NCBI GenBank assembly: GCA_024222295.1
Contig: JAAEPF010000002.1
Span: forward strand, 186,001 to 250,000
Direction of reading: 5' to 3'
DNA: 64,000 bases
From: Actinomycetes bacterium
Lineage (GTDB): Bacteria; Actinomycetota; Acidimicrobiia; Acidimicrobiales; Microtrichaceae
Shown: one piece after another, positions 36,660 through 43,766 of the stretch
Layout of the letters: every line of letters starts with the position of its first letter
Numbering within the stretch: the stretch's first letter is position 1
The notes under the pieces: model-generated
Seen by the model: the letters and a program-made list of their open reading frames with translations, nothing else
Database searches by the model: none
What the model was told of the DNA's origin: nothing
Program-made: the position numbers and the translations under genes

Positions 36660-36739
36660 CAGGCGCCACAACGGACTCAGGAGCCTGCTGACCCGCCGGA
36701 CGCGGCACCACTTGCCTGTGTCGGCGCCGGATGGTCGAA

Positions 36740-36880
36740 TGGCTGGCAAAACAAGTCCCCACGCGCAGGGAAGCCGGTCGAAGTCCGGCGCTGTCCCGCA
36801 ACCGTAGACACGGCGGTCACCTCGGCCGTCCACTGTGAGCCGGAACGCTGGGCGGGGGACCGCAGCTTCGAACACCGTCC
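36740..36880 (+). promoter_or_regulatory. Cobalamin riboswitch (B12 element) of the ECF operon
   Basis: The core at 36768-36805 starts GGGAAGCCGGTCGAAGTCCG and continues with CGCTGTCCCGCAACCGT. This is the conserved J3/4-P4 region of cobalamin riboswitches (GGGAA..GGTG.AA.TCC..GC.G.CCCGCAAC.GT). The second block GAGCCGGAACGCTGGGCGG (36837-36855) fits the B12-box side. A possible promoter is TTGCCT about 17 nt before TCGAAT near 36713-36741. The boundaries are approximate. It controls the next five genes. Confidence 0.92.
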
Positions 36881-36924
36881 GTCGTGGATTACGGACGTCG
36901 AAGCCCGAGGGTCCGCTGCCGGGA

Positions 36925-36951
36925 CTCCCGGGCGCTCGACGCCCAGGAGGA
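36925..36951 (+). promoter_or_regulatory. RBS-sequestering hairpin, expression platform of the riboswitch
   Basis: CTCCCGGGCG and CGCCCAGGAG, separated by CTCGA, form a 10-bp stem with one C-A mismatch that hides the GGAG of the ribosome-binding site just before ATG 36955. Upstream GAGGGTCC can pair with GGGACTC, which shares the CTCC of this stem, giving a competing fold. Control is therefore probably at translation initiation. Confidence 0.65.
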
Positions 36952-36954
36952 GAC

Positions 36955-38430
36955 ATGAACCCAGCCGACCGTCGTGGCGACAATGCCGTGCACCTGCGGG
37001 TCGTGAGTGTGCGCAGAGCGCACCTGCGCACGGCCGTGGTGCTCGTGCTGGTTTCGGCGTTGTCGGTATTCGCCACCCCTGCGGTCGGCGCAGCCGCGGC
37101 CGGTCCTGCGGAGGCTGCCATCGCCTGGCTGGACGCCGAGGTGGCCGCCAACTCCGGGTCACTGCCGGGACCTGGTTCGTCGGAACCCGACTGGGGTCTG
37201 ACTGCTGACGCCGCCCTGGCGCGCATTGCCGGCGGGCGTGGCACCGAGGCGCCCACGGTTGCGCTGGCGCAAGCCCTCTCCGATGCCCTCGCCGACTACT
37301 CGACATGGGACGGCCTTGGCAGCGAGTTCGCCGGGGTCCGTACGTCGGGTGCGCTGGCCAAGGTGCTGCTCGTTGCCACTTCCGCGGGTCTGGCCACTGA
37401 CGACGTCGACGGAGTGGACCTCGAAGCGGAGTTGCGCGGCCTGATGCAGGGCATGGGGCCACAGACAGGCCGGTTCTCGGACCGCAATCCATACGGGCCC
37501 GACAACAGCAACGGCTTCGATCAGGCGTGGGCGATGCTCGCCCTCGCCGCCAATGGCGAGGTGCCGGCGGCGAGCGTGGCGTTCCTGCTGTCCCAGCAGT
37601 GCCCGGGCGGGGGCTTCCCGCTCCTCTACGACGACGGTGGCTGCGACTCCGACGAAGACAGCCATCCGGATGCGAGCGCGCTGGCGGTCCAGGTGCTCCT
37701 CGTGGTGGAGCGCACCCCAGAGGTACGCCAGGCATTGCAGGACGTGCTCGGTCGCCTGCTCGGCGAGCAGCTGCCAGACGGCTCCTTTCGTGGCGCTCCC
37801 CCCACCGAGGTGTCCAATGCCAACAGCACGGGCCTCGCCGCCCAGGCACTGAGGGGAGCGGGTCAGCTCGAAGCGGCCGACCGTGCAGCGGCATGGGTCG
37901 GGTCGATACAGGTGGGCGAGACCCACGCAGGCACGCCGGCCGTCGCTGAATCGGGGGCGATTGCATACGAGCCGGCGAAGTTCGACGGCGCGCTGGTCGG
38001 TGGCATCCCTGGCCAGCAGCGCGACCAGTGGCGCCGCGCCACCACCCAGGGCCTGCTCGCGCTCGACGTCGGGCTGTTCGTGCCCGCGGCCGACGAGGCG
38101 CCGGTGAACCCGACGCCCACCACCTCCACCACGACCACCACGACCACGACCGACACCTCCACCACGTCGAGCACATCCGCGGTGCCTCCCACAGCAGCCC
38201 CGACGACAGCCCCCACCACCCAGCCGTCGGCCTCGACCAGTGGGCCGGATCCGGCCGTCGCGGGCGCGCAGGCGGATGGTGGTGCAGCGGATACTCCATT
38301 GGCCGCCACCGGCGCCGACGGCGGCGTGCTGGGAGCCAGCGGCGCAGGAATGGTCGTCGTAGGCGCCGCTGCGGTCTGGCTGAGCATCAGGACCCGCAGG
38401 CCCGGGCGTGAGGCATGGCACTGGAGCTGA
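36955..38430 (+). CDS. Wall-anchored alpha/alpha-barrel (prenyltransferase/transcobalamin-N-like) protein
   Basis: A 491-residue surface protein. A signal peptide covers about residues 1-45 (AVVLVLVSALSVFATPAVGA). Residues 45-375 are helical repeats of the terpene-cyclase/prenyltransferase type, the fold shared with the N-terminal domain of eukaryotic intrinsic factor and transcobalamin (for example NSNGFDQAWAMLALAANGEV, QQCPGGGFPLLYDDGG, TTQGLLALDVG). A Thr/Pro-rich linker (about 380-435) then leads to LAATG (about 449-453), a hydrophobic helix and a basic tail, a sorting signal of the LAxTG type used by class E sortases. The position under a cobalamin riboswitch suggests extracellular B12 capture. 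The next gene overlaps it by 16 nt. Confidence 0.8.
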   Translation: MNPADRRGDNAVHLRVVSVRRAHLRTAVVLVLVSALSVFATPAVGAAAAGPAEAAIAWLDAEVAANSGSLPGPGSSEPDWGLTADAALARIAGGRGTEAPTVALAQALSDALADYSTWDGLGSEFAGVRTSGALAKVLLVATSAGLATDDVDGVDLEAELRGLMQGMGPQTGRFSDRNPYGPDNSNGFDQAWAMLALAANGEVPAASVAFLLSQQCPGGGFPLLYDDGGCDSDEDSHPDASALAVQVLLVVERTPEVRQALQDVLGRLLGEQLPDGSFRGAPPTEVSNANSTGLAAQALRGAGQLEAADRAAAWVGSIQVGETHAGTPAVAESGAIAYEPAKFDGALVGGIPGQQRDQWRRATTQGLLALDVGLFVPAADEAPVNPTPTTSTTTTTTTTDTSTTSSTSAVPPTAAPTTAPTTQPSASTSGPDPAVAGAQADGGAADTPLAATGADGGVLGASGAGMVVVGAAAVWLSIRTRRPGREAWHWS

Positions 38431-39362
38431 CGTCGCCCGCTCGGCGACTGGCACGCCACCTCGTGCCGGCGGTAGCCGGCGCGTGCCTTGTGGCTGCGTT
38501 CGCTCTGGCGCCCGGGGCCAGGTCCGCAGCAGCACCGCGCTCCGGTCCCGATGGGCCATGTCCTGACTCCCGCGGGGTCACGGTTGTGGTCGACTTCCAG
38601 GATCAGGGTCGTGGCGTACAGGTGGGGTGCGCGCCCGGATCGCCGGAGGACGGGTTCGCCGCGCTCCTCGAGGCAGGCTTCGCGGTGCAAGGAGTCGTGA
38701 CCCAGTCGGGCTTCGTGTGCCGGATAGACGACTACCCGGGCCCCGCTGAGGAACTATGCATCGCGACACCCCCGGCAACGGCCTACTGGTCGTACTGGTC
38801 GGCCGATCGCGGTGGGCCCTGGACCTACAGCGACGTGGGCGCCGCTGCACGCACGCCGGGCCAGGGCACGGTCGAAGGCTGGTCGTTCTCGCGTGACGGG
38901 GGAGTCGGCGACGCGCCGCCTCCGCGCAGCGTGACGGCATGGTCGACACCCTCCACGACCAGGGCCGCCAAGACCACGGCCACCACGACCACGGTCGCCC
39001 CGGCGCCGACACCCGCTGCGAGCATCGCATCGGCGACCACGGTCGCTCCCGCTGCACCGGCACCGGCACCCACCGCACCGCCGACCACCGATTCTCCGGT
39101 TGGCGCATCGAGCACCGTTGCGACCACGGCGCCACCCACCACCAGCGGGGCGACGACGACAACCGAGCCGTTGTCGCCCCCCGAAGAGGCGACATCCACG
39201 GTCGAGCTGGTGGACAGCGGCGGTTCAGGCCTCGCACCTGCGGTCGGCACGGCCGTCGGCATCGCGGTGATCGGCGCCGTCGGCGCGGGTGCAGTGGTCC
39301 TCAACAGACGCAGGTTCGCCACAGGCGTGGCCCCGGGTGGGAGTGGCGGGCCCGCCGGCTGA
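38415..39362 (+). CDS. Membrane-anchored DUF4430/transcobalamin-C-like protein
   Basis: A 315-residue protein: signal peptide (about 1-38), a compact domain (about 45-160), a long Thr/Ala/Pro linker (about 170-255) and a C-terminal membrane helix with a basic end (VLNRRRF). The domain contains GPCPDSRGVTVVVDF, DGFAALLEAGFAV, two Cys pairs, and YWSYWSADRGGPWTYSDVGA, which resembles the transcobalamin C-terminal (DUF4430) fold with its YW motif. A paralogue at 42993-43499 shares the PCPDS.GVTVVVDF, YWSYW and VEGW motifs. Together with the previous protein it would supply both halves of a transcobalamin-like B12 binder. The ATG at 38415 overlaps the upstream gene. Its stop overlaps the next start. 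Confidence 0.75.
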   Translation: MALELTSPARRLARHLVPAVAGACLVAAFALAPGARSAAAPRSGPDGPCPDSRGVTVVVDFQDQGRGVQVGCAPGSPEDGFAALLEAGFAVQGVVTQSGFVCRIDDYPGPAEELCIATPPATAYWSYWSADRGGPWTYSDVGAAARTPGQGTVEGWSFSRDGGVGDAPPPRSVTAWSTPSTTRAAKTTATTTTVAPAPTPAASIASATTVAPAAPAPAPTAPPTTDSPVGASSTVATTAPPTTSGATTTTEPLSPPEEATSTVELVDSGGSGLAPAVGTAVGIAVIGAVGAGAVVLNRRRFATGVAPGGSGGPAG

Positions 39363-40498
39363 TGACGGTCGTCGACTCCCGCCCCACAGGAGCGAAACAG
39401 GTCGATGCCCGCGCCCCCCGACGCCTGCCGCGGGCACTGCACCCCGCCGCCTGGTGGATCTGGGCGCTCGGCATGGCCACCGCCGCCAGCCGCACCACCA
39501 ATCTGCTGCTGCTCGGCCTGATCCTCGCAGTGGTGTCGTTCGTGGTGAGTGCCCGGCGCACCGCTGCCCCTTGGGCGCGCGGCTTCGTCTACTACCTGTA
39601 CATGGCGCTGTTCATCGTGGGGCTACGGGTGCTGTTCCGCGTGGTGTTCGACGCCGGCGCCGGCACCACGCTGTTGTTCACCCTGCCGGAGATACCCCTG
39701 CCCGAGGCGGCCGCCGGGATCACCATCGGAGGGGCAGTCACCCTCGAGGCGATCATGGCCGCTCTGCGCGACGGGCTGCGGCTGGCCACACTCATCATCT
39801 GCCTCGGTGCAGCCAACGTGCTTGCCAACCCGAAGCGGTTGCTGGCTTCGGTGCCCGGCGCGCTGCACCAGTTGGCCGTGGCGGTCACCGTTGCGCTCTC
39901 GGTGGCACCGCAACTGGTCGAGTCGGCGCAGCGGATCCAGCGTGCCCGCAGGCTGCGCGGCGATACCGGCCGCCGCACCCATGTGCTGCGCGACATCGTG
40001 GTGCCCGTGGCCACCGACGCCCTTGATCGGTCGCTGCTGCTGGCCGCGTCGATGGACTCCCGTGGCCACGGCCGCCGCGCCTCGGTTGCCAGCGGTTCGG
40101 CCCGGGCGGCAGGGCTGGCCGTGCTGGCCGGACTCGTGGGGGTGTGCATCGGCACCTACGGCACGCTCGACACGACCGTGCCGAGGTTGCTTGGCCTGCC
40201 CATGCTGTTCGGCGGACTGGCCGTGGCAGCCGTGGGCTTCTGGCTGGGTGGCCGCAAGGTCCAGCGCAGCCGCTACCGCCCGGAGCCGTGGGGTCTGGCG
40301 GAGTGGGGCGTATCGCTCTGTGGGGTCGCGGTGGCGGCGTCGATGGTGTGGCTGGCAGGTGCTGACCCGCTGGCCCTCAACCCGTCGGTGGCCGACCTCG
40401 CCTGGCCCGGGTTGCCGCTGGCCGGCGCGCTGGCGGTGTCCATCGGGCTGCTACCCGGTTTCGTTGCGCCGCCGGTGGAGTTGGAGTCGCCAGCATGA
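39362..40498 (+). CDS. ECF transporter T component (EcfT/CbiQ family)
   Basis: A 378-residue membrane protein with about seven to eight helices. The two cytoplasmic coupling helices carry the family's Ala-Arg-Gly-type motifs: RIQRARRLRGDTG (about residue 195) and LLAASMDSRGHGRR (about 230). These contact the ATPase grooves. It is longer than typical EcfT, with extra helices at the C-terminus. The ATG at 39362 overlaps the upstream stop (TGATG) and its own stop overlaps the next start (ATGA). The operon suggests cobalamin as the cargo. Confidence 0.88.
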   Translation: MTVVDSRPTGAKQVDARAPRRLPRALHPAAWWIWALGMATAASRTTNLLLLGLILAVVSFVVSARRTAAPWARGFVYYLYMALFIVGLRVLFRVVFDAGAGTTLLFTLPEIPLPEAAAGITIGGAVTLEAIMAALRDGLRLATLIICLGAANVLANPKRLLASVPGALHQLAVAVTVALSVAPQLVESAQRIQRARRLRGDTGRRTHVLRDIVVPVATDALDRSLLLAASMDSRGHGRRASVASGSARAAGLAVLAGLVGVCIGTYGTLDTTVPRLLGLPMLFGGLAVAAVGFWLGGRKVQRSRYRPEPWGLAEWGVSLCGVAVAASMVWLAGADPLALNPSVADLAWPGLPLAGALAVSIGLLPGFVAPPVELESPA

Positions 40499-42144
40499 GC
40501 GCGCCGGTCATCCATTTCGACAACGTGTCGGTCACGTATCCCGACAGCTCCACTCCCACGCTGAGCGGAGTCGACCTGGAGATCGGCGAGGGCGAACTCT
40601 GCGTCGTGATCGGCCACACCGGTTCCGGCAAGTCCACGCTGCTCGGCGCCATCAACGGCCTGGTACCGCACTTCACCGGCGGCACGCTCGCCGGCACGGT
40701 CTCCGTTGAGGGACGCCCGACGTCGCACAACCCGCCACGGGATCTCGCAGACGTGGTCGGGGCGGTGGGTCAGGACCCACTCGCGGGCTTCGTGACCGAT
40801 GTGGTCGAGGACGAGCTCGCCTATGCGATGGAGCAGCTCGCCGTGGCACCCGACGTGATGCGCAAGCGGGTCGAGGAGACACTCGACCTGCTGGGGATCG
40901 CGGAGCTGCGGCGCCGCGCGTTGGCGGACCTGTCCGGCGGCCAGCAGCAGCGTGTGGCCATCGGATCGGTTCTCACCCCCCAACCGCGAATCCTGGTTCT
41001 CGACGAGCCCACCTCTGCGCTCGACCCCACCGCCGCCGAGGAGGTGCTCGCCGCCATCACGCGTCTGGTGCACGACCTCGGCGTGACGGTGGTGATGGCC
41101 GAGCACCGCCTCGAACGGGTAGTGCAGTATGCGGACCGGATCGTGCGGGTGCACCGCGACGGCACCGTGGCGGACGGCTCTCCGGGCGAGATGCTCACCG
41201 AGACCTCGCTGGTGCCGCCGGTGGTCGGCCTCGGCAACTTGGCCGGCTGGAACCCGGTGCCGCTGTCGGTGCGAGACGCACGGCGGCTGGCCCCGCCGTT
41301 GCGCGACTCCCTCGCTGCGGCGCATCCCGCGGGGCCGCCACCGAGGGTGCGGCCGGCCCGCGCTCCGGTCGGTCTGTCGGCCCGGGACGTGACCGTGAGG
41401 CGCGGCTCCACCGTGGCGGTGCGCCAGGCGAGCTTCGAACTCGGAGCCGGAGTCACTGCGCTCATGGGGCGCAACGGATCGGGCAAGTCGTCTCTGTTAT
41501 GGGCGCTGCAGGGGTCGCTGCAGCGTGCTGCGGGATCGGTCGTGGTCGGCGGCTCGGACCCGGCATCGCTCGGTCCTTCCGAAGCGCGCTCACTGGTGGG
41601 TCTGGTGCCTCAGAGTCCGGCCGACCTGCTCTACCTGACCACGGTGGAGGGGGAGTGCTCCCGAGCCGACTCGGAGGCGGGAGCGGAGCCGGGCACCTGC
41701 TTGGCGCTCCTCGCCCGACTGGTCGAGGCGGTCGACGCATCAGTCAACCCGCGTGACCTGTCCGAAGGGCAACGGCTCGCAGTGGCGCTGGCCGTGCAGC
41801 TCACCGCGGGGCCCGCCGTGCTGCTGCTCGACGAGCCGACGCGGGGGCTCGACTACGGCGCAAAGGCAAGGCTGGGGGCCTACCTCTCGAGCCTCGCTGA
41901 CAGGGCCCATCCGGTCATGGTGGCGACGCACGACGTGGAGTTCGTGGCCGAGTGGGCGGACCGGGTCGTCGTGATGGCCGAGGGGGAGGTGGTGGCCGAT
42001 GGCCCCACATCCGAAGTGGTGGTTGCTTCCGCCGCCTTCGCCCCGCAGGTGGCGAAGGTGCTCGGTCCGCAGCCCTGGATGACGGTCCGCCAGGTTGCCT
42101 CAGCCCTCGGCGTCGGCAGCCCGCCTGCCGGAGTCCCGTCGTGA
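40495..42144 (+). CDS. ECF transporter fused ATPase (A1-A2)
   Basis: A 549-residue protein with two ABC ATPase domains in one chain. Domain 1 (about 4-240): Walker A GHTGSGKST, signature LSGGQQQR, Walker B ILVLDEPTSALD. Domain 2 (about 295-525): Walker A GRNGSGKSS, a degenerate signature LSEGQRLA, Walker B VLLLDEPTRGLD. This is the fused EcfA-EcfA' arrangement that powers ECF importers. The second signature motif departs from LSGGQ, so the two sites may differ in activity. It is coupled by 4-nt overlaps on both sides to the T and S genes. Confidence 0.92.
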   Translation: MSAPVIHFDNVSVTYPDSSTPTLSGVDLEIGEGELCVVIGHTGSGKSTLLGAINGLVPHFTGGTLAGTVSVEGRPTSHNPPRDLADVVGAVGQDPLAGFVTDVVEDELAYAMEQLAVAPDVMRKRVEETLDLLGIAELRRRALADLSGGQQQRVAIGSVLTPQPRILVLDEPTSALDPTAAEEVLAAITRLVHDLGVTVVMAEHRLERVVQYADRIVRVHRDGTVADGSPGEMLTETSLVPPVVGLGNLAGWNPVPLSVRDARRLAPPLRDSLAAAHPAGPPPRVRPARAPVGLSARDVTVRRGSTVAVRQASFELGAGVTALMGRNGSGKSSLLWALQGSLQRAAGSVVVGGSDPASLGPSEARSLVGLVPQSPADLLYLTTVEGECSRADSEAGAEPGTCLALLARLVEAVDASVNPRDLSEGQRLAVALAVQLTAGPAVLLLDEPTRGLDYGAKARLGAYLSSLADRAHPVMVATHDVEFVAEWADRVVVMAEGEVVADGPTSEVVVASAAFAPQVAKVLGPQPWMTVRQVASALGVGSPPAGVPS

Positions 42145-42974
42145 CGGCGATCCACCGCCAGGGTGGGTCGGCGCTGGGCCTGCGCCCCCGGTCTGCTGCG
42201 GCGCTGGGTGTGACCGCGCTGGCAGGCCTGATGATGTTCCTGTGGCCGCTGTTCGTGAACCCGGGCACGGGTCCTACCCACGGCACCGATGGCCCACTCG
42301 TGTTCGTGGTGATACTGCCCCTGCTGATCGCCATCGTGCTGGCAGAGGTGGCTGACGGCGGGATCGACACCAAGGCGATCGCGATGCTCGGCGTGCTCTC
42401 GGCGATTGGCGCGGCCCTGCGCCCGGTAGGCGCCGGCGTGGCCGGCATCGAGACCGTGTTCTTCATGCTGGTGCTCGCCGGAAGGGTCTATGGCCCCGGC
42501 TTCGGCTTCGTGCTCGGCAACACCACGTTGTTCGCGTCGGCGCTGCTGACCGGGGGTGTGGGTCCCTGGTTGCCGTTCCAGATGCTTGCGGCGGGTTGGG
42601 CGGGCCTGGGCGCCGGCCTGCTGCCCGGGCGGGTCAAGGGGCGCTGGGAACTTGCGATGCTGGCTGCCTACGGGGCGTTCTGTGCCTATGCCTACGGCTT
42701 CCTGCTCAACATCTGGTTCTGGCCCTGGGCGATCGGTTCGGACACCGACTTGAGCTTCGTGGCCGGCGACGCCGTGCTCGAGAACCTGCACCGGTTCTTC
42801 CTGTTCACCGTTGCGAGCTCCACGCTCGGTTGGGACACGGGGCGGGCGATCACCAACGTGGTGGCGATCCTGGTGCTCGGCCCGTCCGTTCTGCTGGTGC
42901 TGCGCCGGGCGCACCACAAGGCCGCCTTCGAGGTCCCGACCCGCTTCGTTGGTGCTGAATCACCGTCACGGTGA
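42141..42974 (+). CDS. ECF transporter substrate-binding S component, probably for cobalamin
   Basis: A 277-residue protein with about six membrane helices, the size of an S component plus a short N-terminal lead. AALRPVGAGVAGIETVFFML and AGRVYGPGFGFVLGNTTLF (about residues 92-130) match an actinobacterial ECF S family that I associate with CbrT-like B12 transporters. No cobalamin-synthesis genes are nearby. The GTG start overlaps the ATPase stop. The last codons (RFVGAESPSR) are encoded by the left arm of a perfect palindrome. Confidence 0.8.
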   Translation: MTAIHRQGGSALGLRPRSAAALGVTALAGLMMFLWPLFVNPGTGPTHGTDGPLVFVVILPLLIAIVLAEVADGGIDTKAIAMLGVLSAIGAALRPVGAGVAGIETVFFMLVLAGRVYGPGFGFVLGNTTLFASALLTGGVGPWLPFQMLAAGWAGLGAGLLPGRVKGRWELAMLAAYGAFCAYAYGFLLNIWFWPWAIGSDTDLSFVAGDAVLENLHRFFLFTVASSTLGWDTGRAITNVVAILVLGPSVLLVLRRAHHKAAFEVPTRFVGAESPSR

Positions 42975-42986
42975 TTCAGCACCAAC
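42948..42986. terminator. Perfect 19-bp palindrome at the convergent junction
   Basis: GTTGGTGCTGAATCACCGT, one C, then its exact reverse complement. It spans the stop of the S-component gene and lies 6 nt from the stop of the opposite lipoprotein gene. It has no U tract on either strand, but the stem is very stable and would form in both transcripts, so a bidirectional terminator or 3'-end stabiliser is likely. Confidence 0.75.
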
Positions 42987-42992
42987 AGAGCA

Positions 42993-43499
42993 CTACTGCA
43001 GTGGGTCGCCGTCGGGGCCGAGGCGGGGGCCATCGGACACGAAGCCCTGTGCCCATGCCCAACCCTCGACCGTGCCCTCGACCAGCGGGCCATCAGACGG
43101 GCCGGTCGGGGCGAAGTCCCATGCGCCGGCCGTGCTGGGCGCACGCCAGTAGGACCAGTAGCCGTCGGTCAGCCAGCAGTAGGGATAGCCCTCGACCGGC
43201 AGGCCCTCGAGCGTGCAGACGGTGCCCGGCTCGGCGTTGGCAGCGTTGGTGTTGATGGCGAGCCCTATTGCCAGCAGCGCGGCGAGGCCGCTCTCCTGGG
43301 GACCGATGGCGCAGCGCACGAGCTGCTCGTCGCTGAGGTCGGCGGTGAAGTCGACCACCACGGTGACTCCCGAGGAGTCGGGGCACGGCCCGTCGGTGTA
43401 GGTGGGGCCGCCGCCACCACCGGGTGCGGGTGCCACGCATGCGGATGCGACGGCTGCCACTGCGGCGAGGCCGCCGATGGCGAGTTGACGGAGTTTCAT
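42993..43499 (-). CDS. Lipoprotein paralogue of the DUF4430-like B12 operon protein
   Basis: A 168-residue protein with signal peptide and lipobox (MKLRQLAIGG, then VASACVAP, Cys near 21). The mature domain repeats the features of the protein at 38415-39362: GPCPDSSGVTVVVDF, CAIGPQESGLAALLAIGLAI, two Cys pairs, YCWLTDGYWSYWRAPS and VEGTVEGWAWAQG. It lacks the long linker and membrane helix, so it would sit on the membrane through the lipid. It has its own cobalamin riboswitch and converges on the ECF operon. I infer a B12-binding role. ATG 43499 is chosen because the signal peptide starts there. Confidence 0.8.
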   Translation of the reverse strand: MKLRQLAIGGLAAVAAVASACVAPAPGGGGGPTYTDGPCPDSSGVTVVVDFTADLSDEQLVRCAIGPQESGLAALLAIGLAINTNAANAEPGTVCTLEGLPVEGYPYCWLTDGYWSYWRAPSTAGAWDFAPTGPSDGPLVEGTVEGWAWAQGFVSDGPRLGPDGDPLQ

Positions 43500-43569
43500 G
43501 TTTGCCTTTGGGTCCGGGACCTGATCGGGATCCCGTCCCGAGGGCTCCACTGCGCGGCGCCGTCGGTGC

Positions 43570-43731
43570 GAGCTCACGATCCGCAGTCCTCGACGGATGT
43601 CTGAGCGACACTCCACGTCGGGCATTCCGACTCGTGGCGGCCGGAGCCGCCACCCACGGTTGCGGGACAGTGCCGGATTCAGACCGGCTTTCCCCTTCGT
43701 GGAGCGTGTCCGCAACGGTGCCGTCGCGGAC
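43570..43731 (-). promoter_or_regulatory. Second cobalamin riboswitch, minus strand
   Basis: Read on the minus strand, 43695-43658 gives GGGGAAAGCCGGTCTGAATC followed by CGGCACTGTCCCGCAACC, the conserved cobalamin-riboswitch core. Downstream comes GAGTCGGAATGCCCGACG (about 43634-43617), close to the B12-box partner. A GGGATCCC-containing stem near 43540-43515 may be the expression platform. It precedes the lipoprotein gene at 43499. The ends are approximate. Confidence 0.9.
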
Positions 43732-43737
43732 GGTGCG

Positions 43738-43766
43738 ACCATAACCAGTCCGGGGCGGCTGGGCAA
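43738..43766 (-). promoter_or_regulatory. Promoter of the minus-strand riboswitch transcript
   Basis: On the minus strand TTGCCC (43766-43761) and TATGGT (43743-43738) are separated by 17 nt. Transcription would start near 43731, giving a leader of about 230 nt that contains the riboswitch. Confidence 0.55.

Follow-up and report, generated by a model that had tools for sequence, protein, structure and literature searches.

The 64,000-nt stretch of the Microtrichaceae contig JAAEPF010000002.1 analysed here (the window) carries a gene cluster that is probably a dedicated acquisition system for vitamin B12 (cobamides) in a likely B12 auxotroph. The cluster encodes an exported barrel protein (B), two DUF4430-like proteins (D1 and D2) and an importer of the energy-coupling factor (ECF) type, and B and D would be the two halves of a binder resembling transcobalamin (TC) or intrinsic factor. 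The assembly of these genes is real and not due to chance. That B12 is the substrate is well supported by cobalamin riboswitches, by the failure to detect markers of B12 synthesis or a BtuC-type permease, by the B12-dependent enzymes of the host and by the kinship of the S component to CbrT. Related loci are designated by L-numbers and genomes by G-numbers below.

The five genes of the operon lie on the forward strand. The first one encodes B (36955–38430), which has a signal peptide, an α/α6 barrel (approximately 37102–38080), a Thr/Pro-rich stalk, a sortase-type motif LAATG, a C-terminal transmembrane (TM) segment and a basic tail, in agreement with the earlier description of a secreted barrel with a wall anchor. 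D1 (38415–39362) consists of a signal peptide, a DUF4430-like domain with a YWSYW motif (approximately 38538–38930), a stalk and a C-terminal TM segment. The EcfT transmembrane component (39362–40498) matches the CbiQ/EcfT family (PF02361, 30.4 bits, cut-off 25), the fused EcfA-EcfA' double ATPase (40495–42144) contains two ABC_tran stretches in one protein and has the ECF ATPases TIGR04521/TIGR04520 as its top NCBIfam matches, and the CbrT-related S component (42141–42974, GTG start) matches PF12822 (34.4 bits, cut-off 30.7). The D2 gene (42993–43499, reverse strand) is convergent to the operon, 18 nt from the S stop codon, and encodes a lipoprotein with a lipobox-like ASAC and a DUF4430-like domain. 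The open reading frames and the Pfam matches thus bore out the gene order and the ECF parts proposed in the original prediction, a five-gene operon with a convergent lipoprotein gene. The genes do overlap as it stated (B/D1 by 16 nt, EcfT/ATPase and ATPase/S by 4 nt each), but the D1/EcfT overlap is only 1 nt, outside the claimed range of 4–16 nt. A perfect 11-bp inverted repeat with a 1-nt loop (42956–42978) is present at the S stop codon, between the convergent S and D2 genes; it has no U tract and the terminator call for it was negative.

Only two cobalamin riboswitches were found genome-wide, both at this locus. The operon is headed by a riboswitch and 5' leader (36720–36950, forward strand; aptamer core 36768–36861), which scored 28.3 bits with RF00174 (E 3.4e-4), below the Rfam gathering score of 31.5. 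Its core is conserved in the riboswitches of relatives, however, and those at the same place in relatives exceed the gathering score, which upholds the assignment. D2, described earlier as a lipoprotein version of D1 behind its own cobalamin riboswitch, is indeed preceded by one (43569–43743, reverse strand), with 32.7 bits for RF00174 (43600–43743), above gathering, and 44.9 bits for RF01482. A strict regular expression overlooked many riboswitches of the relatives and was replaced by a covariance model derived from 25 of them. This model gave 88 strong matches (≥65 bits) in 1.39 Mb from 80 related actinobacterial loci; since the model was trained on part of the counted sites, the scores are biased towards them, although their positions were not preset. 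All but one of the strong matches (87/88) lie directly upstream of, or within, barrel/D/ECF units, and the remaining one (L060) is ahead of its operon at a longer distance. All eight stand-alone barrel genes have a riboswitch of their own (8/8), and the units without a riboswitch are mostly truncated by contig ends. Weaker, partial riboswitch-like matches (model positions approximately 12–83, 38–44 bits) were also observed away from the operon, perhaps at other B12-regulated genes: L034 11995–12129, L050 12297–12427, L033 11074–11204, L037 12709–12841, L062 11037–11173 and L055 15044–15184 (reverse strand).

The host genome (3.76 Mb, 97% complete) encodes the B12-dependent enzymes MetH, two methylmalonyl-CoA-mutase-type proteins and IcmF. 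CbiC, CobS and a FecCD/BtuC-type permease were not found in it, although the same searches were positive in many control genomes. Since the B12 enzymes are present and these three markers are missing, the host likely imports finished cobalamin, although auxotrophy is not proved by three markers in a draft that is 97% complete. The ECF system described here is the only B12 import candidate found in the genome. The S component of the window appears to be kin to CbrT, a relationship that holds in two steps. By hhalign, the window S family (A1) aligns at a probability of 99.6 (E 1.1e-24) with A11, a sister clade formed by S proteins of actinobacteria, and the A11 profile in turn matches chain A of the ECF-CbrT structure 6FNP (E 3.6e-25). 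ECF-CbrT was shown to move cobalamin and cobinamide (PMC5997447).

The search for the S family in one genome per species (84,980 species) gave at least 567 confirmed relatives, and the best 80 of these were used for the locus survey. All 80 loci belong to Actinomycetota (Streptomyces, Amycolatopsis, Micromonospora, Nocardioides, Janibacter, Knoellia and others), and the order B-D-T-A-S, or variants with extra B and D, recurs across them. A weak B12-binding match in L108 looked MiaB-like on visual inspection and was discounted. Among 346 sampled actinobacterial genomes, S relatives occur in 136 and their strong form in 69. D was found in 64 of the 69 genomes with a strong S and in 1 of the 277 others (Fisher p 1e-62, uncorrected for phylogeny). 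In the same set, PF14478 (DUF4430) was present in 63 of the 67 genomes having only the weaker sister S, compared with 14 of the 279 others. The homologues are therefore almost always accompanied by cobalamin riboswitches and this S family, which had been proposed as a check. In the sister clade, a barrel gene comes after DUF4430-T-A-S in six of the inspected loci, all six of which have a cobalamin riboswitch above gathering. Since these loci show such an arrangement and PF14478 tracks the sister S, bona fide DUF4430 holds the position of D next to related S and barrel proteins.

The relationship of D to DUF4430 is remote but well supported. Neither D1 nor D2 has a significant Pfam match. Both match the NCBIfam family SCO2322_fam (NF040672) below its cut-off of 85 (31.5 bits for D1, 21.2 bits for D2), and they are the only two SCO2322-type proteins found genome-wide. 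Aligned by hhalign with the members of PF14478, the D family gave a probability of 70 and an E of 3.9e-5; the 91 aligned columns keep register all the way between the first strand and the last, and the order of the secondary-structure elements agrees. The D-B fusion of Actinomadura hibisca (L067) was chosen for folding because it aligned cleanly, whereas MAFFT misplaced the barrel-only rows for the B-D fusion L027. Its model (mean predicted local distance difference test score, pLDDT, 93.8; predicted TM-score 0.74) has the D order β-β-α-β-β-β-β, which agrees with the published β-domain of TC (PMC11107200). The claim of a DUF4430-like domain thus stands as remote homology, although the PF14478 profile hidden Markov model (HMM) did not reach these proteins. 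A profile of the D family found no match among the PDB sequences. The sister-clade DUF4430 profile weakly matched haptocorrin (E 0.09) and the TC β-domain (E 1.7); these matches are hints only, since they are weak and a SUI1 protein ranked above them. In L165 (G219) and the other genomes of genus g126, the S match is strong, but the D matches are confined to roughly the last 49 positions of the D profile, so that the D proteins of this genus appear divergent or shortened in their N-terminal half. Open frames of approximately 1880–2330 amino acids with DUF4430 repeats were observed near single-domain DUF4430 genes in further actinobacteria (G401, G440, G456, G465 and G480).

The coupling of barrel and D is well supported by their conserved neighbourhood and by fusions in both orders. 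B-D fusions in one reading frame occur in L020, L026 and L027, D-B fusions in L067, L072, L049 and L078, and D-B-B fusions in L028 and L055. Across the tree of the 105 D domains analysed, fusions are dispersed, with seven changes, at least three of them forced by well-supported branches. D2 groups (support 97) with the lipoproteins of L025 and L026 and the D portions of the L049 and L072 fusions, and D1 falls mainly among the TM-anchored proteins adjoining EcfT. This clustering of D2 with barrel-fused D domains suggests that D2 may be the partner of the barrel and D1 the partner of the importer in the window. Tandem double-barrel (B-B) proteins with a C-terminal TM segment replace the single barrel in many operons (L033, L034, L036–L039, L041–L043, L050, L051, L053, L057, L065 and L067).

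The barrel of the window has no significant Pfam match, only a sub-threshold one to SQHop_cyclase_C, and it does not match PF01122, the eukaryotic cobalamin-binding family, which is weakly matched by 13 of its 59 relatives (best E 0.0042). The AlphaFold2 model (mean pLDDT 96.9) confidently predicts six helical hairpins forming an α/α6 barrel, the fold that had been proposed. Its structural neighbours found with Foldseek and VIA are α/α toroids, class II terpene cyclases first (VIA Z 25), followed by glycosidases (GH76) and cellobiose epimerases. Bovine transcobalamin (2bb6) is a significant, lower Foldseek match (rank 30, E 4.5e-5). An LPxTG/LAxTG motif is present in 26 of the 59 barrel relatives, and two sortases are encoded in the genome. 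Two nearly invariant cysteines in B and four invariant ones in D suit exported proteins. Other conserved positions are D190, N241 and Q316 in the barrel and the YWSYW motif and W96 in D.

Cobalamin riboswitches act as OFF switches. When B12 becomes scarce, repression by the two riboswitches would be lifted and the genes expressed. For ligand binding, the order of events and the hand-over to the importer, we infer the following course. The wall-held barrel and the membrane-held D domains (the lipoprotein D2 and the TM-anchored D1) would work outside the membrane as binder halves. The barrel and D2 would capture cobalamin (Cbl), the small D domain docking it and the barrel closing over it. D1, which is encoded beside EcfT, would hand the cobalamin to the CbrT-related S component, and EcfT with the fused ATPases would drive its import, supplying MetH, the methylmalonyl-CoA mutases and IcmF. 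A similar sequence was described for TC, in which the β-domain binds Cbl first and the α-domain then closes on it (PMC11107200). A split binder is reasonable because each TC domain, α or β, binds Cbl in isolation and the association of the two depends on it (PMC11107200).

Several observations weigh against the proposed two-part binder or its components. The PF14478 HMM has no match in the genome and only one of 53 D members reached it, at E 0.19. Structure searches with the L067 fusion were dominated by barrel rows, for which reason the D fold was left unmatched, and transcobalamin was not among the 50 VIA rows listed. Of the solved structures, terpene cyclases and glycosidases are nearer to the barrel than transcobalamin is, and the profile of the window S family had no direct CbrT match in the PDB. 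The genomes and lineages compared are related, so that p-values are inflated and the counts are not independent events. Certain S loci, for example L024, L056, L063 and L071, have no detectable barrel nearby. Such D-T-A-S operons, like the barrels standing alone with their own riboswitch, would also be understandable if the ECF system imported B12 and the barrel and D were independent binders or scavengers of cobalamin or other cobamides that form no joint sandwich; for example, D alone might feed S and the barrel might take B12 from other carriers. The ability of each isolated TC domain to bind Cbl suits such independence as well (PMC11107200), as does the annotation of an "additional lipoprotein component of putative cobalamin ECF transporter" in a lactobacillus (Lacticaseibacillus; PMC9963975). 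The barrel-D fusions, found in both orders and in several lineages, and the frequent adjacency of the two genes point to joint work, however, and we consider independent binders unlikely.

The order of the structural matches, with class II terpene cyclases, cellobiose epimerases and GH76 enzymes at the top in Foldseek and VIA, could also indicate that the barrel is an exported surface enzyme (terpene cyclase-like, a glycosidase or a lyase) linked to B12 by regulation only. This is very improbable, as the DxDD motif of class II cyclases occurs anywhere in only 2 of the 59 members of the barrel family, the aligned motif being D-x-D-A/S/T/G, and the barrel is fused to a DUF4430-like domain and tightly linked to riboswitches and ECF genes. 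It is highly improbable that the ECF importer carries cobalt or another metal for B12 synthesis and that the surface proteins have nothing to do with it. EcfT does match the CbiQ cobalt-transport family, and CbiMNQO and other cobalt importers are also governed by cobalamin riboswitches (PMC11477304). However, CbiC and CobS were not found in the genome, so that corrin synthesis would have no use for cobalt, and the S component belongs to PF12822 and is CbrT-related, not CbiM.

The dedicated B12 acquisition system with barrel and D as binder halves, if true, would have consequences beyond this genome. We judge the chances to be about even that Actinomycetota carry a two-part, surface-displayed transcobalamin, in which a barrel protein and a separate DUF4430-like protein come together on cobalamin and supply it to an ECF importer of the CbrT type, that in Micromonosporaceae it is apparently also released, and that the animal B12 carriers may be of bacterial origin. 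Transcobalamin and intrinsic factor would have a counterpart in bacteria from which they could derive, and the repeated bacterial fusions in both orders would show how carriers with both parts in one chain, such as intrinsic factor, could arise. The system is a testable and widespread candidate for one of the many Gram-positive B12 importers still to be assigned. A role is also proposed in this way for the unnamed conserved SCO2322 family, which is present in streptomycetes. In Micromonosporaceae (L045, L062, L066, L070, L081, L086, L088, L091 and L097), the anchored pair is preceded by a second pair of B and D that is attached neither to the wall nor to the membrane and in most cases has a cobalamin riboswitch of its own. 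This second pair may be released and bind B12 in soluble form, which would matter for the competition for B12 in soil and water.

In open-access papers, we found no description of the barrel-D pair, of its likeness to transcobalamin or of a bacterial transcobalamin, and no paper on SCO2322. As far as this literature could be searched, the barrel-D pair with an ECF importer is apparently undescribed. The lipoprotein annotated in Lacticaseibacillus, which we take to be a DUF4430 protein, resembles the D proteins of the window as a small surface protein annotated with a cobalamin ECF transporter. No barrel partner is reported there (PMC9963975), and the D proteins of the window belong to a divergent SCO2322-like family. 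Putative cobalamin ECF modules behind cobalamin riboswitches were reported in acI Actinobacteria, in strains without B12 synthesis (PMC5301498). They are similar to the window system as actinobacterial ECF modules under a cobalamin riboswitch, and the excerpt of that report concerning them makes no mention of surface proteins or of a link to transcobalamin. The BtuG and BtuH surface lipoproteins of Bacteroides, which capture B12 before transport (PMC6143338; PMC8941943), provide a works-like analogy from a Gram-negative system.

The closest importer is ECF-CbrT of Lactobacillus delbrueckii (6FNP; PMC5997447), likewise ECF-type, with a related S component and B12 as the likely substrate. In contrast to it, T, fused A-A' and S are encoded in the window by a dedicated operon that also contains genes for surface proteins of the barrel and D types. 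Eukaryotic transcobalamin, intrinsic factor and haptocorrin (PF01122 with a C-terminal β-domain of the DUF4430 type) have in common with the window proteins the α/α6 barrel and the small β-β-α-β-β-β-β domain, and the fused relatives L027 and L020 even share their domain order. In the window, however, the two parts are separate anchored bacterial proteins and the barrel is structurally nearer to terpene cyclases. Since the window proteins do not reach the cut-offs of PF01122 and PF14478 and lack the one-chain layout, we do not class them in the transcobalamin family; we regard the system as a variant of ECF-CbrT-type uptake that probably works like transcobalamin.

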